Shown: piece by piece, positions 16,649 through 37,078 of the stretch
How the letters are laid out: each line of letters begins with the position of its first letter
Numbering within the stretch: the stretch's first letter is position 1
Source: a virus
Length of the DNA stretch: 42,335 nt
IMG/VR virus record: IMGVR_UViG_3300044673_000252
Coordinates: 1 to 42,335 of that record
Strand: one strand, 5' to 3'
Made by a program: the position numbers and the translations under genes
The notes under the pieces: generated by a model
What the model was told of the DNA's origin: nothing
The model's database searches: none
The model's input: the letters and a program-made list of their open reading frames with translations, nothing else

Positions 16649-17437
16649 ATGGCAGGGTTTCTAATGTTGTCTAGGGAGATTCAATCCCACTGGATTTTTG
16701 ACGATCCAGAGAAGTTAAAAGCGTGGTTGGTGATTCTGATGGAGGTAAATTTTGAAGCAAAGAAGACGCAACTTAAGGGGCATATATTCGAGTGTGGGAT
16801 AGGGCAAAGTCTCTACTCTCTCGACACCTGGGCATCAAAGTTTGGCAAGAATTGGGACAAGTTCAAAGTTAAGAGGTTTTTCGACCTTTTAAAAAAAGAT
16901 GAAATGATATTGACGGAAAACGTAACAGTAACGCTACGGTTAACAGTGTGTAATTACTTAAAATATAACAAACCGTGTAACGGAACCGCAACGGTAGCGC
17001 AACGCCACCGCAACGGTAGCGCAACGGTAGCGCAACTGACTAAAGAAATGAATAAGGGTATAAGGGAAGAAGAAGACCTTAAACCATTGCCGACACAAGA
17101 TTACCAACAAAGATTATTCGCTGAATTTTATCTTTCCTACCCGAAGAAAAAAGCGCGGGTCAATGCTGAAAAAGCATGGAAAAAAATTAGTCCAAACGAA
17201 TCTCTTTTCCTTGATATTTTGACGGGGCTTGAAAGAGCTAAGAATAGCTTTGACTGGACGAAGGAAAAAGGAAAATATATCCCCTATCCGGCTTCATGGC
17301 TTAATGCTGGTGGATGGGAAGATGAACACGAAGAGGAAGAGGTTGAACGCCCAGAACACTTCCGACCCCATGGTTCAGTGAATCTCCCCGAGTCATATTT
17401 TAAAGCCCTCGAAAAAGCGACAGGGATAAAACGCTGA
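16649..17437 (+). CDS. Replication initiator-like protein containing iterons
   Basis: A 262-aa protein with AAGGAG upstream of ATG 16649. The N-terminal part (FLMLSREIQSHWIFDD ... LYSLDTWASKFGKNWDKFKV) is a winged-helix domain as in phage DnaD/O-type initiators. The C-terminal part (FYLSYPKKKARVNAEKAWKKI ... YIPYPASWLNAGGWEDE) is the usual tail of phage replication proteins. The linker is encoded by tandem 11-bp repeats (16987-17041), so, as in lambda O, the origin probably lies within the gene. It overlaps the primase-helicase start by one base. Confidence 0.85.
   Translation: MAGFLMLSREIQSHWIFDDPEKLKAWLVILMEVNFEAKKTQLKGHIFECGIGQSLYSLDTWASKFGKNWDKFKVKRFFDLLKKDEMILTENVTVTLRLTVCNYLKYNKPCNGTATVAQRHRNGSATVAQLTKEMNKGIREEEDLKPLPTQDYQQRLFAEFYLSYPKKKARVNAEKAWKKISPNESLFLDILTGLERAKNSFDWTKEKGKYIPYPASWLNAGGWEDEHEEEEVERPEHFRPHGSVNLPESYFKALEKATGIKR
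16987..17041. repeat. Tandem 11-bp iterons, candidate replication origin
   Basis: CGCAACGGTAG occurs at 16987, 17009 and 17020, a variant CGCAACGCCAC at 16998, and a partial copy CGCAACTGACT at 17031, all head to tail at exact 11-bp steps. An AT-rich stretch (about 16950-16973) precedes them. The period is not a multiple of three, so the repeats are not explained by a repeated peptide. They fit initiator-binding iterons. Confidence 0.7.
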
Positions 17438-19356
17438 TGGACGTTTCCGAAATCTCACAACGGCTTAAAGATCAGGCCGAGACGATTGCCAAGTATCTCT
17501 TGCCGGGAGGAAAACTGAACGGGCGGGAGTGGATAGCCGGCGATATTTCCGGTATGCCGGGAAAGTCTCTCAAGGTCTGCGTCTCTGGCTCAAAACAAGG
17601 TATCTGGTCAGACTTCGCAAGCGGTGACTCTGGCGACCTAATCGACCTCTGGACGGCAACGCGGGGGATAGGAATAGCCGACGCCTTAAAGGAGATCAAG
17701 AATTATCTCGGCATTGACGACCGGCCCGACTTCTTGCCTATCGCCAAGAGGACGTATAGCAAACCAGTCAGACCGGCGCATGTGGTCAAGGCTAAGTCGG
17801 CTGTTGTCTCTTATCTGGAAGGCCGGGGAATCACACAACCGATTATTGAAGCGTTTAAGGTTGCCGAGGCGAAGCACTACGAAAGCGACAAGGGGAAATG
17901 GGCGGGACCGTGGATTGTCTTCCCGTTTCTCTCCCCTACCGGCGAACTGGAAATGCTCAAGTATTTGCACATTGAGCGCAAGGACGGGAAAAAACAAACC
18001 GTGGTGACTTCCGATTGCCGCCCGACTCTTTGGGGATGGCAGGCGCTACCGGAGAACACGCGCACCGTCGTTATTACCGAGGGCGAAATTGACGCCATGA
18101 GCATGACCGTTTATGGCTATCCGTCTCTCTCTGTACCGTTTGGCGGGGGATCAGGAGCCAAACAACAATGGATTGATCACCAGTACGACGAGTTGGACCG
18201 CTTCGAGACGATTTACCTTGCTCTTGATAACGACGATGCCGGCATGATTGCGAATAAGGAAATATCTCAACGCCTAGGGCTGCACCGTTGCCGCGTGGTC
18301 AATCTCCCCCACAAGGACGCGAACGAATGCTTACAGAAGGGAACCACGAAAGATGAAATTGACGTTTGCATTGCTCAAGCCAAGACCTTTGACCCGGAAG
18401 AATTGCGGCGGTCCGATTCTTTTATTGCCGAAGTGCTGGAAGAGTTTTATCCGACAGGGGGGAAAATCCCCGGTGTCGATATGCCGTGGAAGCGTAACGC
18501 ATTCCGTGACCCTGTACGGATACAGCGCGGCGAGGTGTCTATTTGGACGGGAGGGAATGGACAAGGCAAAAGTCTGATGCTCGGCCAGTTCATCATGCAC
18601 GCCATAGCCGAGGGAGAACGGGCTTGCATTGCCTCCTTGGAAATGGCACCACGGAAAACATTGACACGCCAGGTGAGGCAAGCGACCTGCCAAGATCGAC
18701 CCGTGAAGAGTGAGATAACTGATTGCCTTGAATGGCTAGGGGAAAAACTTTATCTCTTTAATCTGGTAGGAACGGCACAACTTGACCGACTCCTTGAAGT
18801 CTTTGAGTACGCGGTGAAGCGGTACGGTGTCAGACAATTGGTCATTGACTCTCTGCTGAAATGCGGAGTATCGGAAGACGATAAGGACGAGCAAAAAGCC
18901 TTTGTCAATCGCCTCTGCGAGTTTGCTGATAAGACCGGCTCCCACGTCCACCTTGTCGCTCACAGCCGGAAGCAGTTGAACGAAGACCATATGTCCCGCA
19001 AGAATGACGTTAGGGGATCGGCGGCAATAACAGACCTTGGCTTTAACGTCTTCTCAACCTGGAGGAACAAGCCAAAAGAGGCCGCGTTACAGGAGTTCGA
19101 AAAGACCGGAGTTGTGCCGAAAGGATTTAAAACTTCCTCTGAAATCCTTGAACAGCCAGACGCGATCTTATCCGTTGAAAAGCACCGGCAGGATGGAGAT
19201 AAGGAAGGGCGCATTGACCTTTTCCTTGACCGGGAGTCGATGCAGTTCTCGACAGGAGGAGGACCGGTAAAATACTACAAGGTGGAGGCACAGAAGAACC
19301 CCGAAGATGTTTGGTATGAAAACAAGATGAAGGAGAACCGATATGGAAAAGATTGA
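17437..19356 (+). CDS. Primase-helicase fusion (TOPRIM plus DnaB-type helicase)
   Basis: A 639-aa protein. The N-terminal region has a primase-like part (KQGIWSDFASGDSGDLIDLW) without an obvious zinc finger. The TOPRIM domain has ITEGEIDAMS (about residue 212) and LALDNDDAG (about 262-270). The RecA-like helicase domain has Walker A GGNGQGKS (about 372-379) and Walker B LVIDSLL (about 468-474). The layout is that of T7 gp4: primer synthesis and 5'-3' unwinding at the fork. Lack of the zinc motif recalls short forms of such proteins. Confidence 0.92.
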   Translation: MDVSEISQRLKDQAETIAKYLLPGGKLNGREWIAGDISGMPGKSLKVCVSGSKQGIWSDFASGDSGDLIDLWTATRGIGIADALKEIKNYLGIDDRPDFLPIAKRTYSKPVRPAHVVKAKSAVVSYLEGRGITQPIIEAFKVAEAKHYESDKGKWAGPWIVFPFLSPTGELEMLKYLHIERKDGKKQTVVTSDCRPTLWGWQALPENTRTVVITEGEIDAMSMTVYGYPSLSVPFGGGSGAKQQWIDHQYDELDRFETIYLALDNDDAGMIANKEISQRLGLHRCRVVNLPHKDANECLQKGTTKDEIDVCIAQAKTFDPEELRRSDSFIAEVLEEFYPTGGKIPGVDMPWKRNAFRDPVRIQRGEVSIWTGGNGQGKSLMLGQFIMHAIAEGERACIASLEMAPRKTLTRQVRQATCQDRPVKSEITDCLEWLGEKLYLFNLVGTAQLDRLLEVFEYAVKRYGVRQLVIDSLLKCGVSEDDKDEQKAFVNRLCEFADKTGSHVHLVAHSRKQLNEDHMSRKNDVRGSAAITDLGFNVFSTWRNKPKEAALQEFEKTGVVPKGFKTSSEILEQPDAILSVEKHRQDGDKEGRIDLFLDRESMQFSTGGGPVKYYKVEAQKNPEDVWYENKMKENRYGKD

Positions 19357-20295: not shown

Positions 20296-20356
20296 AGATA
20301 ACGATTTTAAGCTGTGCGGCGGGCCTTATCCGCCCACACCAGCGCCTTGGTTATGG
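20296..20356 (+). other. attC-like site at the 5' edge of the cassette cluster
   Basis: A 61-bp site: 5' box AGATAAC (20296-20302); left stem TGTG, unpaired C, GGCGG (20313-20322); loop of 7; right stem CCGCC-CACA (20330-20338); 3' box GTTATGG (20350-20356). The single extra C is the extrahelical base expected of attC. The 5' box does not match the 3' box, which belongs to cassette B1; its own partner (GTTATCT) is not seen nearby. Confidence 0.75.
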
Positions 20357-20709
20357 CGCACATATCACCAAAGGAGAATCATCACTATGTCGTATTCGTT
20401 GGTCACACCGTGCTGTAATTACCCTTCTCAAACCCCTGGCGGGCAAGGAGCTTGCCTTAAAAAAGATATCTGTACCGATCGCCATGTCATCAGCGGGGCT
20501 ATCAGTGCCATCCATAGTATGCCCTTTGGTGTTGGGCATCTGGGTGCAGGGGCTATCACTTTGTCGTGCGGCAATAAACAGGTAGCCGCGCCGGAACCGG
20601 AAATCGAGCCGCACCACTAGAAACTGTGGCAATCGGCAATAAGGCTGCCGTGCGCCATAACGTATTTAGTTGTGCTGTGAAGCGCAGCGTAATCAGCACC
20701 AGCGTTTAG
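20351..20709 (+). mobile_element. Integron-type cassette B1
   Basis: A 359-bp unit. Its start read as G+TT (20350-20361, GTTATGGCGCAC) is the perfect 12-bp reverse complement of GTGCGCCATAAC (20650-20661) in its own 3' attC-like site. It holds one gene (20387-20620). Confidence 0.8.
20387..20620 (+). CDS. Cassette B1 protein, unknown
   Basis: A 77-aa protein with AAAGGAG ten nt before ATG 20387. It contains four Cys spread over the first half (CCNYPSQTPGGQGACLKKDIC) and a Gly/Ala/His-rich middle (SGAISAIHSMPFGVGHLGAGA). I recognise no family. Its stop lies 35 bp before the R'' box, unlike the tighter genes of A, B2 and B3. An antisense frame (20351-20632) lacks a ribosome site and is less likely. 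Confidence 0.55.
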   Translation: MSYSLVTPCCNYPSQTPGGQGACLKKDICTDRHVISGAISAIHSMPFGVGHLGAGAITLSCGNKQVAAPEPEIEPHH

Positions 20710-20715
20710 TTATGC
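20655..20715 (+). other. attC-like site of cassette B1
   Basis: 61 bp: R'' CCATAAC (20655-20661), stem GTGCTG (20672-20677), loop of 16 with GCGCAGCG, stem CAGCAC (20694-20699), 3' box GTTATGC (20709-20715, supplied by B2). The loop resembles that of the site at 5577 (both contain GCGCAGCG). Confidence 0.75.
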
Positions 20716-21030
20716 GCGGTTCCATAGGAGATAATCATGGCAAAAAGCACACCATATAGCGAGCCGGGAAAAATCGCGAAATGTCCACACTGTGATCAGC
20801 TCGTCTATGAGGTATTCGCAAGTGAAGTTCCAAAAAACAACGCATTCATCTGCGGGACAGAAAATTGCGCTGGTAGTACTGGGGATTTGACCTATGAAAC
20901 CCTCAAATGGTCGGGAATGACAAACGCATAACGATTTTACAGATCAGCGGAGGCTTTCAATGTGTAAATCATCGACAGACACATCAACTTTAAACTGCCA
21001 ATGCGATCAGCCTGCCGCTGGATCTGCTGG
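20710..21030 (+). mobile_element. Integron-type cassette B2
   Basis: A 321-bp unit. Its start GTTATGCG (20709-20716) is the perfect reverse complement of CGCATAAC (20925-20932) at its own 3' end. It carries the gene 20737-20931, whose TAA lies inside R''. Confidence 0.8.
20737..20931 (+). CDS. Cassette B2 protein with zinc-knuckle motifs
   Basis: A 64-aa protein with AGGAGATAATC before ATG 20737. It has KCPHCDQLVYEVFA and FICGTENCAGSTG, giving a CPxC ... CxxxxC zinc-ribbon-like pattern. Its TAA is part of GCATAAC of the following attC-like site. Function is unknown. Confidence 0.65.
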   Translation: MAKSTPYSEPGKIAKCPHCDQLVYEVFASEVPKNNAFICGTENCAGSTGDLTYETLKWSGMTNA

Positions 21031-21036
21031 TTATGG
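20926..21036 (+). other. Long attC-like site of cassette B2
   Basis: 111 bp: R'' GCATAAC (20926-20932), stem CAGATCAGCGG (20940-20950) continuing into AGGCT, then a loop of about 55, then AGCCT, G, CCGCT, G, GATCTG (to 21026), and 3' box GTTATGG (21030-21036). The stem is about 16 bp with two single unpaired G bases. Long loops are known for some attC types. Confidence 0.75.
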
Positions 21037-21247
21037 CGAAGACCTAGAGCGGCGGACTAGAGAGGGAAGGCTGACTTTTCCCGAGGCCATAGCAAAATTA
21101 CAAGGCCGTCACTGCCGTTACGTCGAGCGCCACGGAGTACGCTTGCAATTGAGCAACGACCTGACCGTAGTGGATGAAAGGTTTTATTTCCCCGCGCTCG
21201 ATGCAAACGCTTATCTGGCCGATAACTGGCACATTGTGAAGCCATAA
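20960..21247 (+). CDS. Cassette B3 protein, possible Tad2/DUF2829-like fold
   Basis: A 95-aa frame. ATG 20960 has GGAGG six nt upstream, but both lie inside the loop of the B2 attC-like site, so residues 1-25 are encoded by that site. The cassette B3 part reads GRLTFPEAIAKLQGRHCRYVERHG ... VDERFYFPALDANAYLADNWHIVKP. The opening 'TFxEAIxxLxG' and the closing 'AxDWxIV'-like end resemble small DUF2829-type proteins, the fold of the anti-Thoeris protein Tad2. This is a weak resemblance by eye. TAA lies inside R''. Confidence 0.55.
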   Translation: MCKSSTDTSTLNCQCDQPAAGSAGYGEDLERRTREGRLTFPEAIAKLQGRHCRYVERHGVRLQLSNDLTVVDERFYFPALDANAYLADNWHIVKP

Positions 21248-21294
21248 CGCCCCCTGAACTGTACGGTCGCGGAGCGAACCGGACGAGTGATTTG
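21031..21294 (+). mobile_element. Integron-type cassette B3
   Basis: A 264-bp unit. Its start GTTATGGC (21030-21037) is the perfect reverse complement of GCCATAAC (21241-21248) at its own 3' end. Its gene's stop lies inside R''; its gene's start lies upstream in the B2 site. Confidence 0.8.
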
Positions 21295-21300
21295 TTAGAA
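21242..21300 (+). other. attC-like site of cassette B3
   Basis: 59 bp: R'' CCATAAC (21242-21248), stem CGGTCGC, loop GGA, stem GCG-A-ACCG with one unpaired A, flanked by further GT/AC pairing, and 3' box GTTAGAA (21294-21300, supplied by B4). Confidence 0.75.
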
Positions 21301-21434
21301 ACCGGAGTGAGTTATGGATAAGTTTGATCGTAAAAGGCCGAAAGTGAATATAACGGCGCAGGGCGCAGAGGAAACAATATCGAGGTTTCTAACGAAAAAG
21401 CGCACCAGCGCGAAGCGTCTGCTGCCGCGAAGAG
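21295..21434 (+). mobile_element. Short integron-type cassette B4
   Basis: A 140-bp unit, probably decayed or non-coding. Its start GTTAGAAACC (21294-21303) is the perfect 10-bp reverse complement of GGTTTCTAAC (21384-21393) at its own 3' end. No gene is confined to it. Confidence 0.75.
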
Positions 21435-21496
21435 TTAGAAAACTCTTGTTATTCGCGGTAAGCCGGTGTAAAATGAGCGGAATTGTGGGAGGTTGA
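21314..21496 (+). CDS. Small basic frame running out of cassette B4
   Basis: A 60-aa Lys/Arg-rich frame (DKFDRKRPKVNITAQG ... KKRTSAKRLLPRRVRKLL). It starts in cassette B4 after GGAGTGAGTT, but no stop falls in or before its attC-like site, so it reads through that site, through the promoter at 21446 and ends just before the ParB-like gene. It may be a remnant or a chance frame. Confidence 0.35.
   Translation: MDKFDRKRPKVNITAQGAEETISRFLTKKRTSAKRLLPRRVRKLLLFAVSRCKMSGIVGG
21387..21440 (+). other. attC-like site of cassette B4
   Basis: 54 bp: R'' TTCTAAC (21387-21393), an imperfect stem with GCG...CGC and CAGC...GCTG, and 3' box GTTAGAA (21434-21440), the first bases of which already belong to phage DNA. 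It forms the 3' edge of the cluster. Confidence 0.65.
21446..21474 (+). promoter_or_regulatory. Predicted promoter upstream of the ParB-like and terminase genes
   Basis: TTGTTA (21446-21451), 17 nt, TAAAAT (21469-21474). The -10 context GGTGTAAAAT is the same as at 13839. It begins 5 bp after the cassette cluster and would drive the packaging genes. Confidence 0.6.
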
Positions 21497-21500: not shown

Positions 21501-21848
21501 ATGAAGATAAGGGAATGGCCGCACCCTAAAGAGCAGATGAGCCGATTAGGGAAACATCACTGGAGCGTATGCAGGTTGTTTGAGCTGGCGCGTGATTTGC
21601 CGGTGATGGAAATTCCTTTATCTCACCTTTGTGTCTCCTATCAGTACGAGAAACTTTACCTGCGCGAAATGGTGATGCACTTCAAGGCAGTGAACGATGC
21701 AGACCTCAATTGCCCGATTATCCTTGACGAAGACGGGGAATTGATGGATGGACGCCATAGGCTGATGAAGGCCATGTTGATTGGAGCCGAAACAATAAAG
21801 GCGGTCAGATTTCCAGAGAATCCCGCGCCATGCAGGGTGGATGATTGA
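21501..21848 (+). CDS. ParB/sulfiredoxin-like nuclease-fold protein
   Basis: A 115-aa protein with GGAGG eight nt before ATG 21501. The C-terminal half has CPIILDEDGELMDGRHRLMKAMLIGAETI, the ParB-N/Srx signature (DGxHR) of proteins that use or mimic a CTP/ATP site. Phage ParB-like proteins of this size lie near terminase genes and may be nucleases or regulators. The aromatic N-terminal part (HHWSVCRLFELARDLPVMEIPLSHL) is less typical. Confidence 0.8.
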   Translation: MKIREWPHPKEQMSRLGKHHWSVCRLFELARDLPVMEIPLSHLCVSYQYEKLYLREMVMHFKAVNDADLNCPIILDEDGELMDGRHRLMKAMLIGAETIKAVRFPENPAPCRVDD

Positions 21849-21908
21849 CGCCGCAGAGGAGTAGATGATGAGACACGACCCAACAGAAGCAAGGGAATGG
21901 CCGACAGT

Positions 21909-22304
21909 ATGAGCGCCCCAGCTAAACTCACTCCAAAGCAGTCCCTTTTCGTCAAGGAATATCTTGTTGACCTAAACGCGACGCAAGCCGCTATTCGTGC
22001 GGGATACAGCGAAAAAACAGCAAAAGCCCAAGGGTGCAGACTGTTAACCAATGTTTACATTTGCGCAGAGGTAAACAAGGGGAAGGAAGAAAGGGCGGAA
22101 ATAGTAGCTATAACCGCGCAGGATGTCCTGGAATCGATTGTAAGGATAAGGGGCAAGGCAGAGGAAGCGGAAAAGTACAACGACGCTCTTAAGGCCAACG
22201 AGCTACTTGGGAAGCATCTCAAGATGTTTACCGATAAAACAGAATTGACCGGGGCGGATGGCATTCCTTTGGAATTAACGGTCAATTTTGTTAAGCCACA
22301 ATAA
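21909..22304 (+). CDS. terS: Terminase small subunit
   Basis: A 131-aa protein. I prefer ATG 21909, which overlaps the stop of a 15-codon frame (ATG 21865 to TGA 21912) behind AGAGGAG and would be coupled to it; ATG 21897 is an alternative. The opening KLTPKQSLFVKEYLVDLNATQAAIRAGYSEKTAKAQG is the helix-turn-helix signature of terminase_2-type small subunits, which recognise phage DNA for packaging. It directly precedes terL. Confidence 0.88.
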   Translation: MSAPAKLTPKQSLFVKEYLVDLNATQAAIRAGYSEKTAKAQGCRLLTNVYICAEVNKGKEERAEIVAITAQDVLESIVRIRGKAEEAEKYNDALKANELLGKHLKMFTDKTELTGADGIPLELTVNFVKPQ

Positions 22305-22347
22305 ACGGAGTCTCAAAAAAGACGGGTTTATACTTTGAAAGTTTACC

Positions 22348-23604
22348 GTGGCTAAAATAAACGCTGATTTTCCTGAGAAACTCCAATTCCTTTTTACTCC
22401 CAAGCGCTACAAGGTCGCAAGGGGAGGGCGAGGAAGCGCGAAGTCTTGGTCATTCGCCAGGGCTTTGCTTATCAAGGGCGCAAGCCAGACCATGCGCATC
22501 CTTTGCACTCGGGAAGTTCAGAAGTCAATCAAGGATTCTGTCCACAAACTACTCTCCGACCAGATTCAATCGCTCGGCCTCGGCTCATTCTATCAAGTGT
22601 TGGAAACAGAAATCAGGGGACGCAATGGCACGCTGATTATCTTTGCCGGTCTCGCACAACACACCATCGAATCAATCAAATCTTACGAGGGAATCGATAT
22701 AGTTTGGATCGAAGAGGGCCAGGTTGTCAGCAAACGCAGCTTGTCAATTCTCATTCCCACGATCCGCAAGGACGGCTCGGAAATCTGGATTAGCTACAAC
22801 CCCGAGCTTGACACCGATCCCGTACACGATATGTTCACCGTCAACCCGCCCGACGACTGCATAAGCGTCCTTGTCAACCACTCTGATAATCCGTGGTTTC
22901 CCGAAGTCCTCGAAAAAGAACGTCTACGCTGTAAGCAACTTGACCCGCAGGGTTATGACAATATTTGGGAGGGCATGTGCAAGCCTGCCGTCGTCGGCGC
23001 GATCTATTACAACGAAGTGGCAGCAGCCGAAAAAAATCAGCAGATTTGCAATGTGCCATATGATCCCATGTTGAAAGTTCACGTTGTTGTGGATATCGGA
23101 TGGAATGACAGCATGGCTATATCATTTGTGCAGCGTCTTCGCTCAGAAATTCGTGTGATTGACTACATTGAGGACGACCACCGCACTCTTGACAGTTACA
23201 GCGCCGAGATGAAGGACAAGCGGTATAATTGGGGCAAGATGTTTCTTCCTCACGATGGGAAGCACAAGAATGTGCAGACGGGTAAATCGTGCGGTGAAAT
23301 CCTGGGGGCGTTTGGATGGGACATTGAATACACCCCGGACGTGAGCATAGAGGACGGAATCAAGGCCGTTCGTATGGCGTTTGGGATGATGTACTTTGAC
23401 AAGGTAAAAACGGAAAGACTTGTCCAATGTGCCAAGAGATACCGCCGCAGGGTAAACCAGCAGACACAAGTTGCAGAGTCACCATTGCACGACGAGTGGA
23501 GCCATGGAGCCGACAACATCCGCTATATCGCCTTGAATGCTGATAAAATGGATAACAGCATTGGAGACAAAAAGCCCAATATGCAAGGAGTCTACAGGAG
23601 ATGA
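22348..23604 (+). CDS. terL: Terminase large subunit (terminase_3 type), GTG start
   Basis: A 418-aa packaging motor. Walker A GGRGSAKS lies at about residues 26-33, Walker B DIVWIEEG at about 115-122, followed by an IPTIRKDGSEIWISYNP coupling region. The C-terminal nuclease has VVDIGWNDS (about 247-255) and HGADNIRYI (about 386-394) with metal-binding Asp residues. Family terminase_3 includes PBSX- and SPP1-like enzymes, which often act with headful packaging. No clear ribosome site precedes GTG 22348. The C-terminus KPNMQGVYRR recurs in the gene at 23950. Confidence 0.92.
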   Translation: MAKINADFPEKLQFLFTPKRYKVARGGRGSAKSWSFARALLIKGASQTMRILCTREVQKSIKDSVHKLLSDQIQSLGLGSFYQVLETEIRGRNGTLIIFAGLAQHTIESIKSYEGIDIVWIEEGQVVSKRSLSILIPTIRKDGSEIWISYNPELDTDPVHDMFTVNPPDDCISVLVNHSDNPWFPEVLEKERLRCKQLDPQGYDNIWEGMCKPAVVGAIYYNEVAAAEKNQQICNVPYDPMLKVHVVVDIGWNDSMAISFVQRLRSEIRVIDYIEDDHRTLDSYSAEMKDKRYNWGKMFLPHDGKHKNVQTGKSCGEILGAFGWDIEYTPDVSIEDGIKAVRMAFGMMYFDKVKTERLVQCAKRYRRRVNQQTQVAESPLHDEWSHGADNIRYIALNADKMDNSIGDKKPNMQGVYRR

Positions 23605-24176: not shown

Positions 24177-26165
24177 TTGAAAGCTAACGACCTCAAAAAG
24201 CAACAAGAGTTCGAGACTGATTTTTCAACTTGGTTCAGAACCAAGTTAAAACCCACCATAGACGATAACCGCCGCCGCTACCGCATGCAACTTGATGATG
24301 CGGAAGAGCGCGAAAGTCGCGGCCTATCCGCCCTCCCCTCTACAAAATCCACCTCCGCTGTTGATCGATACGTTGAAAAAGCCATCCTAGAATATCACGG
24401 AGAGCCGGACGCCATTTCTTTCTCGGCGCAGACCGGCGCAGCAATGGACGTTGACCAGTGCGTAAAGTGGCTCGATCAAGTCATTAAGCACCGCATGGAG
24501 CATACATTTCCCTTTGCCGCCTGGCATGTTTCCTCTCTCACGGCTGGAGCTGTTGACGGACTGGAAGCGGCGTTAGTCTCATGGCGGCGCGAAGCGTACA
24601 CGATCAAAGAGAAGATTTGCACCTACACAGACGGCATCAACCCCCCGCAGCCAGTGCCGGAAGAGGTCTACCGTCAATTTGAGGGAACAGCGGGGTTTGC
24701 CGAGACGGAAGAGGACAAAGAGATCCCTTCCGTTGATTCGTGGTGGATCGACCAGCTCAAACCAGGAGAGGATCTTCTCTGGGATATCAAGACTCCTCTT
24801 CTTAATCTCAATATGGGGCAAGCCGCTCTTGTGAAGCTTGACCGCAGCCTTGACCAGATCACCGAACTCGCGGAGCAGGGCGTTATCGACAAGGTGAAGC
24901 CAGAAACGCTCAAGAAGTGGCAAGGACTGTCTGCTGACGCTATCAATATCGACATTGGCGCGACTCTTGGCAGCACTGACCAAGTGGACATGGGCGACCT
25001 GAACACGATCAGTGTCTGGCTGTGGTTCGAGAAGGTCAATAGCCGCTGGATGGTGTCATTCTCTATCGAGGGGAAAGTTTCGCTCAGCAAGCCGAAGCCG
25101 GTCGATGATGTCTTCTACAACGGACGACAGGTTAATTTGTTACCTGTCATTCTCGGCACCAGCAAGATAAAACTTTGGGAGAACTCAGGGCGCGGCATCC
25201 CTGAAACGATTGCACCCGTTGAGGATGAGTGGATTGACCACCGGAACAACCTAAACGACATGGCGAAAATTAATGTCCGTGGCGGTCGAATCCGGCTCAA
25301 TAAAAATAGCGATGTTGATATTGACTCCCTCTTGAATGAAGAAGTTTTCTACGCAAATTCGGGGGAAGCCGAGTTCATACCCATTGGCAGTGTTGGCGAT
25401 TCCATGCGTGCCGCCGACGCGATCACCGCCGACTTCAACGAGTTAATCCCTGTCGGCATGGATAGCCGTCAAGTTGTGCCGAAAGGCGTGGACAAAACCC
25501 TCGGCGCTCTGCAAATGGCAATGGGGAGCAGCAATGAGAAGTTGTCAGTCTCCCTCCTTGTGCGGAATATCACCTTCCTTCGCCCCTTGCTCTACATCAT
25601 TGCCCAGATGGAAATAGCCTGGGAGACGGACGCCACCATCCTGAAACTCGCTGGCCAGAAAGTGACCGGAGAGCAGAACGGGAAGAAGGTGCCGTTTCAA
25701 GTGCCGACTGTGCAGGGAGAAGTTGATTTCAGGGCGCTTGACGTAGCCTACCAGGTCCAGATCAATGCAGGACTTGGCAGCGTCCCCCGGCAGCAGAAGA
25801 TAGGCGTTTTGACCAATCTTTACCAGCTCGGCAAGCAAGCGGGCATCCCCGTTGATGCCATGAAGATGTTTAAACAGATTTGCGTGCTATCTGGATTCGA
25901 CGCTGAGCAGTTTATCGGGGAGCCTACCGCTGCACCCGGACCAGAAATGAAGGTAGCGCTTGCCCTTGACTTTGGCTACCTCTCCAACCCGCAACTGCTG
26001 ACACCCCCACAGCAGCAACTCCTTTCGATGATAATGAACAGCGCGGGAGGGATGGATGTTAACCTATCCGCTCAGCCGCCTAAAAGCCTTGGAGGGCCGC
26101 AAAGCCCGATGGACGCAGCAGGAGCGATGATGGAGAACATGCCCCCCGAAGGGTTCATGGGATGA
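24177..26165 (+). CDS. Portal protein, TTG start
   Basis: A 662-aa protein. TTG 24177 has GAGGAG eight nt upstream. The N-terminus (WFRTKLKPTIDDNRRRYRMQLDDAEER) and length fit large podovirus-type portal proteins, the dodecameric ring at the capsid vertex through which DNA passes. Position between terminase and scaffold/capsid genes supports this. The C-terminal 50 residues are Pro/Gln/Met-rich (TPPQQQLLSMIM ... MENMPPEGFMG) and may protrude into the capsid. Confidence 0.85.
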   Translation: MKANDLKKQQEFETDFSTWFRTKLKPTIDDNRRRYRMQLDDAEERESRGLSALPSTKSTSAVDRYVEKAILEYHGEPDAISFSAQTGAAMDVDQCVKWLDQVIKHRMEHTFPFAAWHVSSLTAGAVDGLEAALVSWRREAYTIKEKICTYTDGINPPQPVPEEVYRQFEGTAGFAETEEDKEIPSVDSWWIDQLKPGEDLLWDIKTPLLNLNMGQAALVKLDRSLDQITELAEQGVIDKVKPETLKKWQGLSADAINIDIGATLGSTDQVDMGDLNTISVWLWFEKVNSRWMVSFSIEGKVSLSKPKPVDDVFYNGRQVNLLPVILGTSKIKLWENSGRGIPETIAPVEDEWIDHRNNLNDMAKINVRGGRIRLNKNSDVDIDSLLNEEVFYANSGEAEFIPIGSVGDSMRAADAITADFNELIPVGMDSRQVVPKGVDKTLGALQMAMGSSNEKLSVSLLVRNITFLRPLLYIIAQMEIAWETDATILKLAGQKVTGEQNGKKVPFQVPTVQGEVDFRALDVAYQVQINAGLGSVPRQQKIGVLTNLYQLGKQAGIPVDAMKMFKQICVLSGFDAEQFIGEPTAAPGPEMKVALALDFGYLSNPQLLTPPQQQLLSMIMNSAGGMDVNLSAQPPKSLGGPQSPMDAAGAMMENMPPEGFMG

Positions 26166-26425
26166 GTGCGATTGATAACCGCGAAGAGTGGGAGCGTTGC
26201 CGGGAGTGGCTGAACCACCCCATGACAAAACACGTTGCTCGCAAGTTGCGTACGGCATCTAAAGGCGTATTGCGGAAGTACGACAAATGCACGCCGGAAG
26301 AATTGCAGCGTCACCAGCTTTTAAGAGAGATATTGAACCACCAGATACCGGCGATTATTGAGAACATGGCGAACCCTCCGCAAAAGAGGCGGTGGGATTG
26401 GCTGCGGGCGATATTCGGGAAATAA
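26162..26425 (+). CDS. Hypothetical protein in the head operon
   Basis: An 87-aa protein coupled to the portal by ATGA. It is helical and basic (EEWERCREWLNHPMTKHVARKLRTA) and ends in a Trp/Arg-rich RRWDWLRAIFGK. Small genes of this kind follow portals in related genomes; its role may be structural. Confidence 0.6.
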   Translation: MSAIDNREEWERCREWLNHPMTKHVARKLRTASKGVLRKYDKCTPEELQRHQLLREILNHQIPAIIENMANPPQKRRWDWLRAIFGK

Positions 26426-26436
26426 GGAGGAATTTT

Positions 26437-26817
26437 ATGATTAATGTAAGCGATGGCGGGATAGAGAGTGTAATTGGAGTATCTACAGACATGGTGACGT
26501 GTTTTGTGAATCACAGAATAGGGAAAAAATATAATATCGGAGAGATAGAAAGCCTACCGAATAATTTAAAAGTAGAGTGTGATGGAAGTACCAAAGACAC
26601 CGATGACCCAATCAGAGCATTTTCTGAGAAAGTGACGGATTTAATAATTAAAGGAATACCAAATAAGGGAAGAATCGAAAAGTTTTGCGGTAGAGTCGTA
26701 GCCGTTGATTTTGACGTTACGACAAATAAATATACATACAATTTCAACTATGCAATCCAACTTTCACCTCCGAGAAAGACCCCTATAAAGAAAATGAGAA
26801 AAGCGATAAGGAGATAG
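26437..26817 (+). CDS. AT-rich accessory protein in the head operon
   Basis: A 126-aa protein with AAGGAGG before ATG 26437. Its codons are clearly richer in A and T (many AAA, ATA, AAT) than those of the flanking head genes, a sign of recent acquisition. It starts with a beta-rich part (SVIGVSTDMVTCFVNHRIG) and ends very basic (PPRKTPIKKMRKAIRR). No family is recognised. It behaves like a moron inserted between portal and decoration-type genes. Confidence 0.6.
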   Translation: MINVSDGGIESVIGVSTDMVTCFVNHRIGKKYNIGEIESLPNNLKVECDGSTKDTDDPIRAFSEKVTDLIIKGIPNKGRIEKFCGRVVAVDFDVTTNKYTYNFNYAIQLSPPRKTPIKKMRKAIRR

Positions 26818-26820
26818 ATT

Positions 26821-27123
26821 ATGGCATTCAGATTCAGACTCGACGAAAATGGGCACCCCGTCCAGATACCGACCCTCGGCGCAGCGCGAACCGTGAATAT
26901 TGCAGCGACCAGCACCCAGAGCGCGGCATTGACCGCTGACGCTGTGCGATTGCAACCGACCGTGACGTGCTTTGTTATTATCGGTGCCAACCCGACCGCG
27001 ACCACGTCCGGCCATTACCTTTTGGCGGGTCAGCAGTACGACATTGACGTTCAGCAAGGCGACAAAATCGCGACTATCCGATCCGTAGGGGACGGTGTGT
27101 TGTATATCAGCGAACTTTCGTAA
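26821..27123 (+). CDS. Possible head decoration or head-associated protein
   Basis: A 100-aa beta-rich protein (GAARTVNIAATSTQSAALTADAVRL ... TCFVIIGANPTATTSGHYLLAG) with closing DGVLYISELS. Its sequence style resembles the protein at 29140. Both flank the scaffold-capsid pair, so both may bind the capsid surface or a connector. This is inference from position and composition. Confidence 0.55.
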   Translation: MAFRFRLDENGHPVQIPTLGAARTVNIAATSTQSAALTADAVRLQPTVTCFVIIGANPTATTSGHYLLAGQQYDIDVQQGDKIATIRSVGDGVLYISELS

Positions 27124-27135
27124 GGAGAAGGACCA

Positions 27136-28047
27136 ATGGGAGAAGAACAAGCCGGGACAGTCACCGGGGAAGAGTCTGTTTCGTCACAGACTGAGGAAGA
27201 AACTCAAGCCTCAACCGAAGAGGTCGCCGCGTCTACCGAAATCGAAGGTAGCGACGAAGTTGTCGAAGGCGAAGGGACGGAAGAGCAGGATAAATCCTCA
27301 AAGCGTTTTCAAGAACTTGCCAACGCCAAGCGCGAACTCTCCGAGAAGTTGGAGAAACAAGACGCGCAAATCAAGGAGCTGGCGGCGAAGTTTGAGGAGC
27401 AGCAGAAGGCAAGTCAAGCGCCGGGGGCAATCGATGAAACAGCCCTCGCCAACTACCTGACGGATGCCGAGTTCCAGATTGAAACGCTCAAGGCAGAGGG
27501 CAAGATCCTCGACGCGAAACTGTTGCAGCGCAAGGTGGACAAACTCCTTGATGACGTCGAAGCGCATCGAGCCAAAGAAGCCGAATGGCGCAAGACGGCG
27601 ACCGCTAGCGAATTGCAGCAGTCGCAGACCGCCACAGCCTTAAAGGAGCTTGACGGGGCCGCAGAGTTTTTCAGGGAGGCGAAACATATCCCGAAAGACG
27701 TTTGGGAGAAAGGGGCCGACCAATGGGCCGAACTCCGCAAAACTGACCCCCTTCTTGACCGGCAGTATGCGGAAGTCTGGCAGCGCCAGGGTCCGGTAGC
27801 GGCGATTAATTTTGCCTATGACCACATCCAGAAGACGCAGACCGCCGAAGCTGAAAAGCTGAAGCTCGAAAAGGCCAACAAGGACAAAGGGAAAGGCGGC
27901 ATCCCCGGTGGGGGCGCAAGCGGACCCGGTAAGGGAATCGCTTCATGGGATCAACTCACCGGCCTCGGCACAAAAGTTATGGTTGAGTACAAGAAGAACA
28001 ACCCGAAACACTACCAAGAATTGCTCGACAAACACATGAGCAAGTAA
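27136..28047 (+). CDS. Scaffolding protein
   Basis: A 303-aa protein lying just before the capsid gene. It has an extremely acidic Glu/Ser/Thr-rich start (about residues 1-55), a long charged coiled-coil region (NAKRELSEKLEKQDAQIKELAAKF) and a Gly-rich linker (GIPGGGASGPGKG) before a short basic helix (YKKNNPKHYQELLDKHMSK) that may bind capsid. This composition and place are typical of phage scaffolds, which guide procapsid assembly and then leave. Confidence 0.8.
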   Translation: MGEEQAGTVTGEESVSSQTEEETQASTEEVAASTEIEGSDEVVEGEGTEEQDKSSKRFQELANAKRELSEKLEKQDAQIKELAAKFEEQQKASQAPGAIDETALANYLTDAEFQIETLKAEGKILDAKLLQRKVDKLLDDVEAHRAKEAEWRKTATASELQQSQTATALKELDGAAEFFREAKHIPKDVWEKGADQWAELRKTDPLLDRQYAEVWQRQGPVAAINFAYDHIQKTQTAEAEKLKLEKANKDKGKGGIPGGGASGPGKGIASWDQLTGLGTKVMVEYKKNNPKHYQELLDKHMSK

Positions 28048-28098
28048 TTATCCATCAACCCCCTTTTGCCGGAGAACACCGGCCAAGGAGTACACGTC

Positions 28099-29085
28099 AT
28101 GGCAGAAACCCGCATTGCGGATATCGTCGTTCCCGAAATCCTCTCGGACATGGTATCCGCCCAAATCTCCCCGTACATGGATTTCCTCCGCACCGGCATT
28201 GCTACCAAGGACTATGGGAATAAGGGGATTGACGAAGGTGGTTTGTTCGTCAAGGTTCCCTTCTACAACCAGTTGACCGGCACTTCTCAGCGCCTTACCG
28301 ATTCGACCAGCCTTGTGCCAGGGAAAATCAGCACCGCGACCGACGTCGGAGTCGTCGTCCATCGTGGTAACGCATGGGCATCCCGCGAACTGGCCACGAT
28401 CATCTCCGGAGACAACCCCCAGAAGGAAGTAGCAAAACAGGTTGCATCGTTCTGGGGCAAGGACATGACCAACGCCTGTATCTCCGTCCTCAATGGCGTC
28501 TTTGACGCTTCCGCAGGGACGCTTAAGGATACCCACCGGGTTAAGACCGGAGCTGATTCCTCGGCGGCTGTCATTGTTTCGGCTGGCGACATCGTAAAAG
28601 CAGCTTCTAAACTTGGCGACAAAATGACCGAGTTTGACGCTCTTGTCGTCCATTCCCTCGTCTACGCCGACATGCTCCGCGCAAAGCTCGTTTCTTTCCC
28701 GGCTCTCAACGACCCGAACAACGTGAGCCTTGCACAAAGTCCCGGTAAATTCCTCGGCCTTGACCTTATCGTCACCGACTATTGCCCCGTTGCCGGAACC
28801 GGAACTTATGCACTCTATACCTGCTACCTCATGAAAAAAGGCTGCATGTACCTGGGGATGCAAAAGAATATCATGACTGAGAACGACCGCGACATCCTGG
28901 CGCAGAAAGACATTCTCGCAACGACCGCCCATTTTGTGCCGCATTTGAAATTGGTCAAGTGGAACACCACGGACGACAACCCCGAATATACCAGCCTCGC
29001 CACCGCTGGCAACTGGCTCAACGTCGCCAACGACAACAAGTTTATCGGTGCAGTGGCTCTCGTCGTCAACGCCACCCAGAACTAA
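28099..29085 (+). CDS. Major capsid protein
   Basis: A 328-aa protein; AAGGAG lies 8 nt before ATG 28099, which I prefer to the ATG at 28066. The pattern ETRIADIVVPEILSDMVSAQISPYMDF, LFVKVPFYNQLTG and the long spine-helix region (NPQKEVAKQVASFWGKDMTNACISVLNGVFD) match common phage capsid proteins of HK97 fold. Position after the scaffold confirms. A hairpin follows in the gap. Confidence 0.85.
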   Translation: MAETRIADIVVPEILSDMVSAQISPYMDFLRTGIATKDYGNKGIDEGGLFVKVPFYNQLTGTSQRLTDSTSLVPGKISTATDVGVVVHRGNAWASRELATIISGDNPQKEVAKQVASFWGKDMTNACISVLNGVFDASAGTLKDTHRVKTGADSSAAVIVSAGDIVKAASKLGDKMTEFDALVVHSLVYADMLRAKLVSFPALNDPNNVSLAQSPGKFLGLDLIVTDYCPVAGTGTYALYTCYLMKKGCMYLGMQKNIMTENDRDILAQKDILATTAHFVPHLKLVKWNTTDDNPEYTSLATAGNWLNVANDNKFIGAVALVVNATQN

Positions 29086-29095
29086 AACCATCACA

Positions 29096-29119
29096 GGGGA
29101 GGTCTTAACGGGCCTCCCC
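29096..29119. other. Intercistronic hairpin after the capsid gene
   Basis: GGGGAGG (29096-29102) and CCTCCCC (29113-29119) form a perfect 7-bp GC-rich stem with a 10-nt loop, with no T tract after it. It may stabilise the capsid mRNA 3' end or partially reduce read-through. Confidence 0.55.
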
Positions 29120-29139
29120 GCTTCTAAAGGAGACACATC

Positions 29140-29445
29140 ATGACAGAGAGCTTTAAAGACGGCGGGCCGCACAACCCGATCCGCGTTTATACCAATACCG
29201 ACGTTGATCTTGCTCAAGTGGCGACCATCACCACCGCCGAGCAGGACATCACCATCACCGGCCTCGCGACGACTGACGTGCTTCTGCACGCATCGTGCAA
29301 CGCTCATACGGCAGGGCTTGGCTACGGGAATGCTCGCATCAAAGCCGCCAACACCCTCGCCGTTCAGATTACCAACCCGACCGCAGGGGCACTGACCCCG
29401 GCTGCCAATGCGACATGGACTGTCGCGGTCATCAAAGGCGCTTAG
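29140..29445 (+). CDS. Hypothetical head-associated protein
   Basis: A 101-aa beta-rich, Thr/Ala-rich protein after AAAGGAGA (DVDLAQVATITTAEQDITITGLAT ... LTPAANATWTVAVIKGA). It follows the capsid gene and may be a head decoration or fibre-like protein. No family is named. Confidence 0.55.
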   Translation: MTESFKDGGPHNPIRVYTNTDVDLAQVATITTAEQDITITGLATTDVLLHASCNAHTAGLGYGNARIKAANTLAVQITNPTAGALTPAANATWTVAVIKGA

Positions 29446-29448
29446 CCG

Positions 29449-29601
29449 ATGGGCTTTCCTCTGACATGGCAGAGACGCGACCAGGAGAGGGGGGCAGAAA
29501 TGCCCCCTGAACCGGCCAACCCGCTGAAATGCGCTTGCGGATTCGTGGCGAAGAATGCAGCCGGCCTCGCCGCCCATAAAAGGAAAACGAGATGCCCATA
29601 G
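29449..29601 (+). CDS. Small zinc-finger protein in the head-tail operon
   Basis: A 50-aa frame starting 3 nt after the previous stop. ATG 29500 (33 aa) has a stronger purine-rich site (AGGAGAGGGGGG) and may be the true start. The core CACGFVAKNAAGLAAHKRKTRC is a C2HC-like zinc finger of a type met in several phage structural regions. Its stop overlaps the next gene by 10 nt. Confidence 0.55.
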   Translation: MGFPLTWQRRDQERGAEMPPEPANPLKCACGFVAKNAAGLAAHKRKTRCP

Positions 29602-30245
29602 TCGTTGAGACAATCGCCGCCCCTTTGGGGGATGGATTGAGCGGGAAAGACATCTTGGACGCGGTTTCTTCGCATATCCAAGACAAGTCAACGACCATGC
29701 GCGGTCTTTTGGCGTTGTGGCTGAACACGCTCTTTCAAAAGGCACTCAACGAACGGGAATGGCAATTCCTTTTCACCACGATTTCCACGGAGATTGAGAA
29801 CAACCGAATTATCAAACCTTCCGACTTTGGACGCTTGGAATACGCCAAGGGGAGCGGGTGGTTTTTGGAACCGAAGAACCGAATGACGGGACGGGAAGTC
29901 TACGACGCCACAGACGAGAGCGCAAACAACCCGACGCCGGTAGGATTCGAGGAGACGCAGACCAGTCTTAACCTTATCCCTGGTGCATCAGGTACGGCTA
30001 CGCTTCGTTATGTGCGGCTTATCCCCGCTGCGTCGGATACGACAACGCGCACGGCCTGGCCGTGGTCATTCCTCCCCCTCTTTGAACGGTCCCTCTTGTC
30101 GGTCTATTACGAATACGACGCCGATGCAAGAGGGGTTCTTTCGCTTCAACTCGACACTGCGGAACTTGACCGGCTGAAGTATCAAGACAATTTACTTCGG
30201 CCCATTCCGAAGCGGTCTAACCGTGGATACGTGAGGAACCGGTGA
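29592..30245 (+). CDS. Head-tail connector-like protein
   Basis: A 217-aa protein. Content such as KSTTMRGLLALWLNTLFQKALNEREWQFLF and DRLKYQDNLLRPIPKRSNRGYVRNR suggests a mostly helical connector or tail accessory factor. It stands between capsid and the propeller-like tail protein, the place of P22 gp4/T7 gp11-type proteins. I could not confirm a family by motif. Confidence 0.6.
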   Translation: MPIVVETIAAPLGDGLSGKDILDAVSSHIQDKSTTMRGLLALWLNTLFQKALNEREWQFLFTTISTEIENNRIIKPSDFGRLEYAKGSGWFLEPKNRMTGREVYDATDESANNPTPVGFEETQTSLNLIPGASGTATLRYVRLIPAASDTTTRTAWPWSFLPLFERSLLSVYYEYDADARGVLSLQLDTAELDRLKYQDNLLRPIPKRSNRGYVRNR

Positions 30246-31672
30246 TTACCAACCGGCAATCAGACTTCTCCGGTGGTGAGAACCGTAAACTTCTCCCTGA
30301 GTTTATCAAGGCGAATCAACTGACTCTCGCGCAAAATTGTGTGATGACGGCAGAAGGTTTGATTGAGACTCGGCAGGGGAAGGTAAAGGTCAATACAGAC
30401 TCACTCGGCGCAGGGAATGTCTTATCGGCTGTCAGATGGGCGAAAGAGAACGGGACGAAGTATCTAGTCGTCCAACACGGAACGAGCCTCTTTGGGGTCA
30501 CGTGGGACGGCTCCACCCCTTTTGCCTCGTTTGGAACGGCAATCAAGACCGGACTAACCGCAGGCGCAAAACTCCGCTACGTTGTCTGGAAGGACAACCT
30601 GATTTGTTACAACTCCGCAGACGTGGCCTTTCGATGGGACGGAACCACGGTAACGAATCTTGCCGGCTCTCCCCCGAAATTCATTCACCTTGTCTTGTAC
30701 GGCGGGAGACTTTGGGGAATCGATGTAGCAACGGGTTATATCCGCTTCTCTGGTCTGGAAACTTACGACACGTGGGACGCGCTCGACCTGTTGACGGCAA
30801 GAAGCGGCGACGGCGACAAACTGACCGCGCTTATTCCCGTCTCTGGTGGTCTTCTGGCGTGCAAGACTAAAAACATTTTTCCGATCTACGGGACCAACCG
30901 CTTTGACGTGTCGATGGGAGAGGCTATTACGGGAATCGGCTGTATGTCGGCAGACGCCGCCCTGACCGGAATCGTCATGGGTGCGGATAACTGGTATTTG
31001 GCGGGTCTGTCGGCTGTAACACCCTTCCCCGAAACGCACACGCCGTTATTGACAAATCTCACCTTTGCCCAGAAGCAAGCCGTGTTTTCGGCTTACCAGT
31101 CAAGGGACCGCCGCGCCCTTTACCACCTCCCGACCGGAGAGACGGTAGTGATTGATGGCAAGCGCAACGCTATCACCACATGGAAGGGCTTGGCTGCAAC
31201 CTGCTTTGCCATGGATGATTCTGTCGGTGATGACGGGCGGCTGTTGATGGGTGGTACGGATGGGCACGTTTACATGCTCAGCGGGACCGATGACAGCGGC
31301 ACATCGATTGAGACTTATATCAAACTCCCCTACAGCGACCACGGCACCGGACTTGACAAAGAGTGGCGCGTCTTCTGGCCGAAGGTCGATATTCTCGACT
31401 CTGGCGATTATGAGATTTTCCTTCGCTATGACGTGGATTATGCCTCAGTCAAAGGGCAAGACACTTTTACCGGCTCACTCCCTGACTATCTAGAATGGGG
31501 GGAAGAAGATTGGGGATCTGCGGCATGGGGCACCGGAACAAATAGCATTGAAACACCCTACTGGATGCACGGTGTCAGAGGTGAGTATGTAAGTTTTGAA
31601 ATCCGCACGAATCAGCGCATACGCTTTAGAGGATATGAAAGCCGCTACAACGTGGCAGGGAGAAAGAGCTGA
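30242..31672 (+). CDS. Beta-propeller-like tail/DNA-stabilisation protein, GTG start
   Basis: A 476-aa protein starting at GTG 30242, overlapping the previous stop (GTGA). It opens TNRQSDFSGGENRKLLPEFIKANQL, an opening shared with podovirus tail proteins of the gp10 (packaged-DNA stabilisation) type, and then has repeated blades with Trp-Asp/Gly pairs (LFGVTWDGSTPFASFG, AFRWDGTTVTNLAGSPP). It probably forms the upper tail that closes the portal after packaging. Confidence 0.75.
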   Translation: MITNRQSDFSGGENRKLLPEFIKANQLTLAQNCVMTAEGLIETRQGKVKVNTDSLGAGNVLSAVRWAKENGTKYLVVQHGTSLFGVTWDGSTPFASFGTAIKTGLTAGAKLRYVVWKDNLICYNSADVAFRWDGTTVTNLAGSPPKFIHLVLYGGRLWGIDVATGYIRFSGLETYDTWDALDLLTARSGDGDKLTALIPVSGGLLACKTKNIFPIYGTNRFDVSMGEAITGIGCMSADAALTGIVMGADNWYLAGLSAVTPFPETHTPLLTNLTFAQKQAVFSAYQSRDRRALYHLPTGETVVIDGKRNAITTWKGLAATCFAMDDSVGDDGRLLMGGTDGHVYMLSGTDDSGTSIETYIKLPYSDHGTGLDKEWRVFWPKVDILDSGDYEIFLRYDVDYASVKGQDTFTGSLPDYLEWGEEDWGSAAWGTGTNSIETPYWMHGVRGEYVSFEIRTNQRIRFRGYESRYNVAGRKS

Positions 31673-32454
31673 TGGGAATCGTCAAGCCGACAAAGGCGTT
31701 TACTTTTGTTAATGGTCCAGGTAGCACCGCTGACGGGACTGAAGTGAATGAGAACTTTGACCGACTCTATTCCAAGGTAGGGGAAGTCATTGACGCACTC
31801 AACAACGCATCAGGTACGAAGGCGAATCTTGACACGCGCCTTGACGTTGCCTTGAATGATGATGGGACACCCCGCACAGGGGTAACGGCTGGCGGAGAAT
31901 GGATTAACCCTGCACTGACGACGACTTACGTTTCCTCCACACAATTTACCTGTTCAGGCGGAAATCATACCGACATTTATTTGACGGGGAGACGTCTTAA
32001 AATCGGTCTGGCGGCATCCACGGTTTACAGCGAGGTGGTTACATCATCTTATAGCGGTGGGATCACGACCATCACTATTCTAGACGATGTTTTAACGAAT
32101 CCACTAACCAGTATTGAGCATGGGCACCACAAACCGTACTCATCTGGTCAAAGTTCCCTGCCCAACACTCCGCTGCTCACAAAGGTCATCAGCGATTGGC
32201 AGTGGATAATGTATGAGGACGGAACATGCGCTGTTAATCATGGTCTGGACGGGTCAAAAATACAAGCCGTCTCGGTCACAATTGATAGTGACGATGGGTT
32301 GACTCATACTCCTTTAACTGCGAACAACCAAGGGTCTTTCGCTTGGGGCGCGGTAGACATACAAATGTCGCGAGTGGGTGGCGGATATTTCGACAGTTCC
32401 GACTACTCAGGAACTGGGAACCGTGGGAAAATTGTTATCTGGTACGAGAATTAA
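31672..32454 (+). CDS. Tail fibre-like or tail accessory protein
   Basis: A 260-aa protein starting on the stop of the previous gene. The N-terminal part (KAFTFVNGPGSTADGTEVNENFDRLY) resembles openings of phage fibre and needle proteins, followed by a beta-rich body (TTTYVSSTQFTCSGG ... GGITTITILDD). It is likely a virion component of the tail tip. Confidence 0.65.
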   Translation: MGIVKPTKAFTFVNGPGSTADGTEVNENFDRLYSKVGEVIDALNNASGTKANLDTRLDVALNDDGTPRTGVTAGGEWINPALTTTYVSSTQFTCSGGNHTDIYLTGRRLKIGLAASTVYSEVVTSSYSGGITTITILDDVLTNPLTSIEHGHHKPYSSGQSSLPNTPLLTKVISDWQWIMYEDGTCAVNHGLDGSKIQAVSVTIDSDDGLTHTPLTANNQGSFAWGAVDIQMSRVGGGYFDSSDYSGTGNRGKIVIWYEN

Positions 32455-32646
32455 ATGAAGAAACTTGGCACATTCCCTGATCTTCTCGATAGACAAATAT
32501 CAGAAATCGTCCAATGGGCAAAACGTCCTTTGCTTGATGCTGGCATCAACGTTAGAACGCCGGACGGCACAAAGGTTTTCAGGCTTGCCGTTGACAACAC
32601 AGGGACGATTACATCAACAAACGTGTCGGCAGAGTATGGACTTTGA
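32455..32646 (+). CDS. Small tail-module protein
   Basis: A 63-aa protein starting directly after the previous stop (KKLGTFPDLLDRQISEIVQW ...). It ends with a beta segment (FRLAVDNTGTITSTNVSAEYGL). It overlaps the following gene by 11 nt. Function is unknown. Confidence 0.6.
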   Translation: MKKLGTFPDLLDRQISEIVQWAKRPLLDAGINVRTPDGTKVFRLAVDNTGTITSTNVSAEYGL

Positions 32647-33052
32647 ACAGGCCGATAAACTTTGCACCCGAATTATTGACTTTTCCGTCGAGCAGGGCGG
32701 CCCATACCCCGATATGGATAAAGGCTACTTGCAATGGGTTATCCTTTCGGCGCTCGGGTCAAGTCAGTTCGTTATCAAGATCGACCGGCAGGGAATCAGA
32801 TACTTTGCTTGCTGGTGGTGGATGAATCAAGAGGCTTTAGACGATTTCCATGCTACCAGAGAAATTCCCCGCTCCATTGATTGCGGAAATCTTCTTTATG
32901 TGGCGGAAGTCATATCCAGAGGCGTTAAGAATGATGCAAGAGAAATGATCCGAAGAATTAGAAAGTCTTGCGAATTATTCACAATTAAGGCATATTGGCA
33001 TCAACCCCATAGAGCAAGCAGACTTTGTTCGTGGAAGGAGTTAAAAGCATGA
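32636..33052 (+). CDS. Possible acyltransferase-fold protein in the tail module
   Basis: A 138-aa protein starting at ATG 32636 within the previous gene. The middle part (GIRYFACWWWMNQEALDDFHATREIP, CGNLLYVAEVISRG, REMIRRIRKSC) and the late YWHQPHRASRLCSWKEL recall GNAT/HlyC-like acyltransferase folds found in phage structural regions. The match is by pattern only; catalytic residues cannot be fixed. Such proteins may modify virion parts or act on the host. Confidence 0.5.
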   Translation: MDFEQADKLCTRIIDFSVEQGGPYPDMDKGYLQWVILSALGSSQFVIKIDRQGIRYFACWWWMNQEALDDFHATREIPRSIDCGNLLYVAEVISRGVKNDAREMIRRIRKSCELFTIKAYWHQPHRASRLCSWKELKA

Positions 33053-36670: not shown

Positions 36671-36684
36671 CAGGAGAAACAGCC

Positions 36685-36789
36685 ATGATGAAGCGCCCGA
36701 CCAAAGCCGGAAAAGACATGAAAGAAGCCCCGAAAAAAGGCGGGAAGATGCCGATGATGCCGAGTCATAAAACCGGCAAGAAGTGCTAG
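36685..36789 (+). CDS. Tiny Lys/Met-rich protein
   Basis: A 34-aa peptide with CAGGAGAAAC before ATG 36685 (ATG 36688 also possible). It is Lys-, Met- and Pro-rich (MMKRPTKAGKDMKEAPKKGG, MPMMPSHKTGKKC). Its charge suggests DNA or capsid binding; a minor internal head protein is possible. The strong ribosome site supports translation. Confidence 0.55.
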   Translation: MMKRPTKAGKDMKEAPKKGGKMPMMPSHKTGKKC

Positions 36790-37074: not shown

Positions 37075-37078
37075 ATAC

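Follow-up and report, generated by a model that had tools for sequence, protein, structure and literature searches.

Clusters of attC sites lacking an integron integrase (CALINs) have been described in virulent phages, with TJE1, H101 (PH101), P12002L and MW202573 as examples (Qi et al. 2023, PMC9892861). In that study 17 phage CALINs were reported, with small genes including methyltransferases, and five of six tested attC sites recombined with IntI1, among them sites of H101 and two of TJE1. The arrays of TJE1 and PH101 were described there as typical in orientation. Complete integrons, with both IntI and attC, are recorded for temperate phages, such as Vibrio Va_90-11-286_p16, Shewanella M16-3 and P1 (PMC9892861). 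In bacteria, sedentary chromosomal integrons and class 1 integrons hold rows of cassettes with G|TT boundaries, intI being divergent from attC polarity, and are the way by which bacteria stock and swap genes. Integron cassettes are also inserted into non-integron sites by attG insertion; the term attG is used in PMC12901181.

Here, we analysed an array of the CALIN kind in an IMG/VR virus record (IMGVR_UViG_3300044673_000252), the whole 42,335-base stretch of which is hereafter called the window. As in the described phage CALINs, attC sites are present and no integrase was found; however, the genes run antisense to the attC sites. To understand whether this arrangement is peculiar to one phage, we also compared arrays from other viral contigs (designated below by L and a number) with arrays of bacteria. 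Phage CALINs as such are already known, whereas neither inverted polarity nor phage IntI clades were found in the literature searched, which comprised full texts without subscription papers and preprints.

The window and its attC sites

The recognisable genes of the window read on the plus strand and encode spanin, Erf and RecE-like recombination proteins, HNH, helicase, methyltransferase, replication initiator and primase-helicase (17437-19356), followed by the array and by the small and large terminase (21897-23604). The structural half (24177-42000) had almost no PHROG matches, with only weak amidase and head-decoration hits. No DNA match over 17-27 kb was found in 50,697 phage records. Relatives of the phage were further sought with its terminase, portal-region and primase genes: only the terminase found relatives (best 62% identity), without shared synteny in the array region, and the other two found none. 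The window's phage has no close relatives, so an empty site could not be shown. No Phage_integrase-family match (tyrosine recombinase) was found in the entire record, which may be incomplete, and searches for Rfam families and tRNAs gave nothing.

The first-pass annotation had placed five attC-like hairpins in 20296-21440, bounding four cassettes, and this observation was confirmed: all five sites are present (Table 1). The complementarity between the two ends of each of the four units is exact over 12, 8, 8 and 10 bases, which is longer than the match inside each site for the same boxes (8, 4, 6 and 6), so that it follows the unit and not the site. Beyond the invariant GTTA, the extra matches (8, 4, 4 and 6 bases) are not expected by chance; our rough estimate is 4^-22 for all four. 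It should be added that single unpaired bases in the stems, also claimed by the annotation, received mixed support, since the folds agreed for s3 and s5 and poorly for s1, s2 and s4, which leaves open whether the unpaired features conferring bottom-strand preference, i.e. extrahelical bases and a central spacer, are present. Two details of the annotation were wrong, namely the polarity of the sites and the number of cassettes, which is five.

A naive fold scan for attC was not selective and was replaced by covariance models. Such a model had been named in advance as the means by which the reading could fail, if no hit rose above background. Integrons next to intI were collected from 80 bacterial genome loci and a plasmid, 41 diverse attC sites were picked, and a covariance model, R1, was built and calibrated. 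In 816 kb of phage DNA (the window, TJE1, MW202691 and 80 contigs chosen only for their terminase) R1 gave six hits: s5, s3 and s4 of the window and the three attC sites of the published TJE1 CALIN, while the 80 control contigs gave none. With filters off, s2 and s1 appeared too, s1 not being significant alone. Three hits at 17-19 bits and a fourth at 12 bits thus lie within 1.1 kb on one strand, where a CALIN requires at least two attC sites within a few kb. A second model, R2, made from 128 sites, also recovered the published arrays of MW202573 and H101.

Table 1. Features of the array in the window. Scores are bits of model R1 on the minus/plus strand unless stated otherwise; SD, Shine-Dalgarno.
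Feature	Coordinates	Strand	Description	Support
attC s1	20296..20356	-	R'' CCATAAC at 20356-20350, R' GTTATCT ending at 20296; left end of the array, cut at 20301|20302	inverted repeat and R boxes; 5.7/4.0; R'' pairs with the start of its own cassette over 12 nt
gene B1	20387..20620	+	cassette gene, 77 aa, Cys-rich, no known family	SD AAGGAG before ATG; no family or relative
attC s2	20655..20715	-	cut at 20660|20661	12.2/5.5
gene B2	20737..20931	+	cassette gene, 64 aa, zinc-ribbon-like (CPHC...CGTENC); stop TAA inside the R box of s3	SD AGGAG; only a weak zinc-ribbon similarity
attC s3	20926..21036	-	long-loop site; SD and ATG of B3 lie in the loop; cut at 20931|20932	18.0/<4; 19.6 on minus with R2
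gene B3	20960..21247	+	cassette gene, 95 aa, first codons read from the attC loop; stop TAA inside the R box of s4	SD GGAGG before ATG 20960; no confident fold match
attC s4	21242..21300	-	cut at 21247|21248	17.1/4.9
gene B4	21314..21496	+	possible cassette gene, 60 aa, runs through s5; doubtful as a gene (unit only about 145 bp)	SD GGAG; no family match
attC s5	21387..21440	-	cut at 21392|21393	19.1/7.4
gene B5	21501..21848	+	fifth cassette gene (phrog_17560), predicted ParB-N/sulfiredoxin-like fold; far end eroded	41 IMG/VR relatives; AlphaFold pLDDT 93, best PDB matches ParB-N domains

Polarity and cassette genes

All five sites scored higher on the minus strand, and all five have the C before GTTA that bacterial sites have, only in that direction. 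The genes, in contrast, are on the plus strand: B1-B4 all have a Shine-Dalgarno before ATG, while the minus ORFs do not. The cassettes are therefore composed of a gene plus the attC upstream of it, i.e. s1-B1, s2-B2, s3-B3, s4-B4 and s5-B5, of which B5 was outside the array as first annotated. The gene in the same direction as attC, which is usual but not absolute in bacteria, is hence not observed here.

Among the 41 IMG/VR relatives of B5 (L292-L332), those in at least four other phage contigs, L293, L296, L311/L312 and L332, lie between or against attC sites, all on minus with B5 on plus, which directly supports B5 as a cassette mobile between genomes and the inverted arrangement. Most of the 41 are ordinary phage genes without attC nearby, so the same gene exists inside and outside cassettes. 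The complementarity of unit ends was not found for B5, whose far end is lost: the missing end (GAGTTTTCTAAC) was searched for and is not in the window on the expected side, and the right end of the array has no attC-like boundary. Mobility was not shown for B1-B4; searches with proteins B1-B3 in phages, plasmids and 84,980 genomes, and with B3 in viral contigs, gave no match. B1-B4 have no relatives, so their status as cassettes rests on structure alone. A Tad2-like identity of B3, suggested by sequence motifs, was not supported by Pfam or by the fold search of a low-confidence model.

Arrays in other viral contigs

IMG/VR was scanned with a DNA pattern for attC, blind to genes, which returned at least 120 stretches, and R2 found arrays in most of them. 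Genes with SD and ATG inside arrays were then compared with attC polarity. After removal of redundant arrays, 73 of 86 viral arrays were antisense, 3 sense and 10 unclear (genes 257:17), whereas bacterial arrays were 2 antisense, 15 sense and 10 unclear (genes 9:39), with Fisher p of 1e-12 for arrays and 3e-28 for genes. The second part of the viral set, not used to form the idea, gave 18:1. Most of these sequences are uncultivated contigs, with hallmark genes checked only in part; gene calls were simple, and since the pattern and models were trained on bacterial sites, divergent phage sites are missed. The isolated phage H101 and MW202573 were inverted too, the H101 array being located at 75919-77987 of NC_029094. 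TJE1 and a few viral arrays (L193, L229, L244 and L262) keep the ordinary polarity, and inversion is thus a strong rule and not an absolute one. Furthermore, L216 (IMGVR_UViG_3300009945_000063) has four attC sites at an exact spacing of 316 bases (942-1958), probably a tandemly duplicated cassette.

We considered whether the polarity result could be an artefact. The seed attC set was filtered for a C before GTT, but the resulting model agreed with gene direction in bacterial arrays (74:3 and 39:9), and a second detector without covariance model, which keeps the C-before-GTT rule, gave the same contrast (see below). Protein families settled which strand codes: the 110 longest antisense ORFs matched 110 PHROG families, and the 110 longest sense ORFs matched none. 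The antisense set includes methyltransferases, Dam, Mom, Lar, Tad2-like, NinX, MazG and RNA ligase, that is, many counter-defence genes. Flanks of the arrays encode phage replication genes. In 35 of 47 decided cases flanking genes run the same way as the cassettes; in the other 12 they run the other way and the cassettes are still inverted, so polarity seems to belong to the cassette and not to its place. Moreover, in 15 of 178 phage cassette genes (L199 9326-9448, L250 1062-1187 and 13 others) the start codon and SD lie inside a long attC loop (median 101 against 66 nt), as in s3/B3, so that recombination would leave the N-terminus tied to the attC.

Integron integrases of phages

Ten contigs of the pattern scan gave IntI-type matches, and seven of them a full-length integron integrase, 53-59% identical to IntI1. 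The contigs of L215, L273 and L285 carry terminase, portal, head-tail or tail genes. The seven IntIs form one clade with 100/99 support, also after adding the nearest relatives found in 274 genomes of one bacterial class (best 65% identity). Phage-clade IntI beside an inverted array is present in L184, L188, L215, L222, L278 and L285, and absent from the window. A wider scan revealed at least 227 IMG/VR viral contigs with IntI relatives (recorded under L347-L425 and L278); of the 79 best analysed, 39 and 23 fall in two purely viral clades (FastTree support 0.97 and 0.62) and the rest in small groups. Beside these IntIs, the detector independent of the covariance model found 13 arrays, all inverted (35 genes to 1), against 9 sense, 0 antisense and 5 unclear arrays in bacteria. 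None of these IntIs was found in isolated-phage records above 60% identity.

Interpretation of the array

We consider with high confidence that the interval is a CALIN of five integron-type cassettes in a dsDNA phage, belonging to a phage-specific form of the integron in which the cassette gene runs antisense to attC polarity. Each cassette is one small gene with its own Shine-Dalgarno, preceded in the reading direction by its attC hairpin; its stop often lies in the R box of the next site and its start sometimes in the attC loop. In this view, IntI supplied in trans by a host, or by a co-infecting or resident phage, would recombine the folded attC strand at G|TT and so add or remove cassettes, while the phage's own transcription would read through the row and express small accessory, often counter-defence, genes. 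The orientation of the flanking genes indicates, however, that phage read-through cannot be the whole story. The attC sites, their polarity, the unit ends, the sharing of B5 between phages, the generality of the inversion and the phage IntI clades are all read from sequence, whereas recombination activity, the supply of IntI in trans, expression and the reason for the inversion are inferred, with no excision, insertion or expression having been observed. The interpretation given in the first-pass annotation, that of an integrase-less cassette cluster by which the phage gains genes through a host integrase, is thus supported in part: the CALIN stands, but each gene belongs with the attC before it, phage CALINs were already described, and a host integrase need not be the source, because many uncultivated phages encode their own integron integrase beside inverted arrays of the same kind.

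An ordinary CALIN copied from a host integron, with the real genes on the minus strand, is very unlikely. The minus ORF 21057-21245, which starts at the R box and ends just before s3, does have the layout of a canonical cassette gene, and TJE1 is canonical; nevertheless, the minus ORFs of the window lack SDs and have poor codon scores, two of the four minus units hold no long ORF, B5 is a conserved plus-strand gene found as a cassette elsewhere in the same polarity, and the sense ORFs across viral arrays match no protein family. Equally improbable is that the hairpins are terminators or other RNA structures of a phage operon, although they lie between short co-directional genes and attC sites are thought to act as weak terminators (PMC9892861). 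The attC model hits and their absence from the control contigs, the complementarity that follows units, the occurrence of B5 with attC in some phages and without in others, the integrase genes beside such arrays and the lack of an Rfam match all argue against it. A relic of real attC sites, carried by mosaic exchange with another phage or host and no longer gaining or losing cassettes, is possible but not likely: there is no IntI in the record, s1 and s2 are degenerate and B5 has lost its right boundary, yet s3-s5 keep model scores close to those of the TJE1 sites, and the unit-specific complementarity is still intact.

We regard it as probable, though less certain than the CALIN itself, that phages possess their own integron system distinct from the bacterial one, with integrases in purely viral clades and a separate, phage-circulating pool of cassettes rich in counter-defence functions (methyltransferases, Mom, Lar, Tad2-like), the window being an integrase-less satellite array of this system. 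Because attC polarity is opposite to the genes, a phage cassette in an ordinary host integron would face away from Pc, and a host cassette in the phage row would be antisense to phage transcription, so that polarity would act as a barrier keeping the two pools largely apart. Why the cassettes are inverted is open: this silencing, which follows from geometry, is one possibility, and another is that the recombining attC strand is then the non-template strand of transcription and, for genes read with the fork, the lagging-strand template, so that it folds more often; neither was tested. If phages run such a parallel version, they have a modular device for trading small counter-defence genes, and the place to look for unknown anti-defence genes becomes concrete, namely whatever lies between inverted attC sites. 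The inversion also bears on how cassettes are made (a gene joined to attC at its 5' side instead of its 3' side) and on whether strand exposure by transcription or replication drives cassette exchange. H101, an isolated virulent phage with an inverted array and attC sites already reported to recombine, makes this testable.

Comparison with known integrons

An attG insertion would explain how a first cassette enters a phage genome at G|TT; this was not examined, and no empty site of this phage is known. The window shares with the CALINs of virulent phages (PMC9892861) the attC array without intI. That paper does not mention antisense genes, while in our analysis H101, MW202573 and the window have genes antisense to attC, only TJE1 being ordinary. 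The complete integrons of temperate phages have host-type IntIs, 44-57% identical to the phage-clade IntI, and in the Vibrio and Shewanella phages the cassettes mostly run with attC (11 sense, 2 antisense). As to sedentary chromosomal and class 1 integrons, attC structure, G|TT boundaries, cassette rows and the direction of intI against attC are the same; however, cassette genes in bacteria run with attC in 15 of 17 decided arrays and in phages against it in 73 of 76, and in phage integrons the cassette genes consequently point the same way as intI, as seen in L222.
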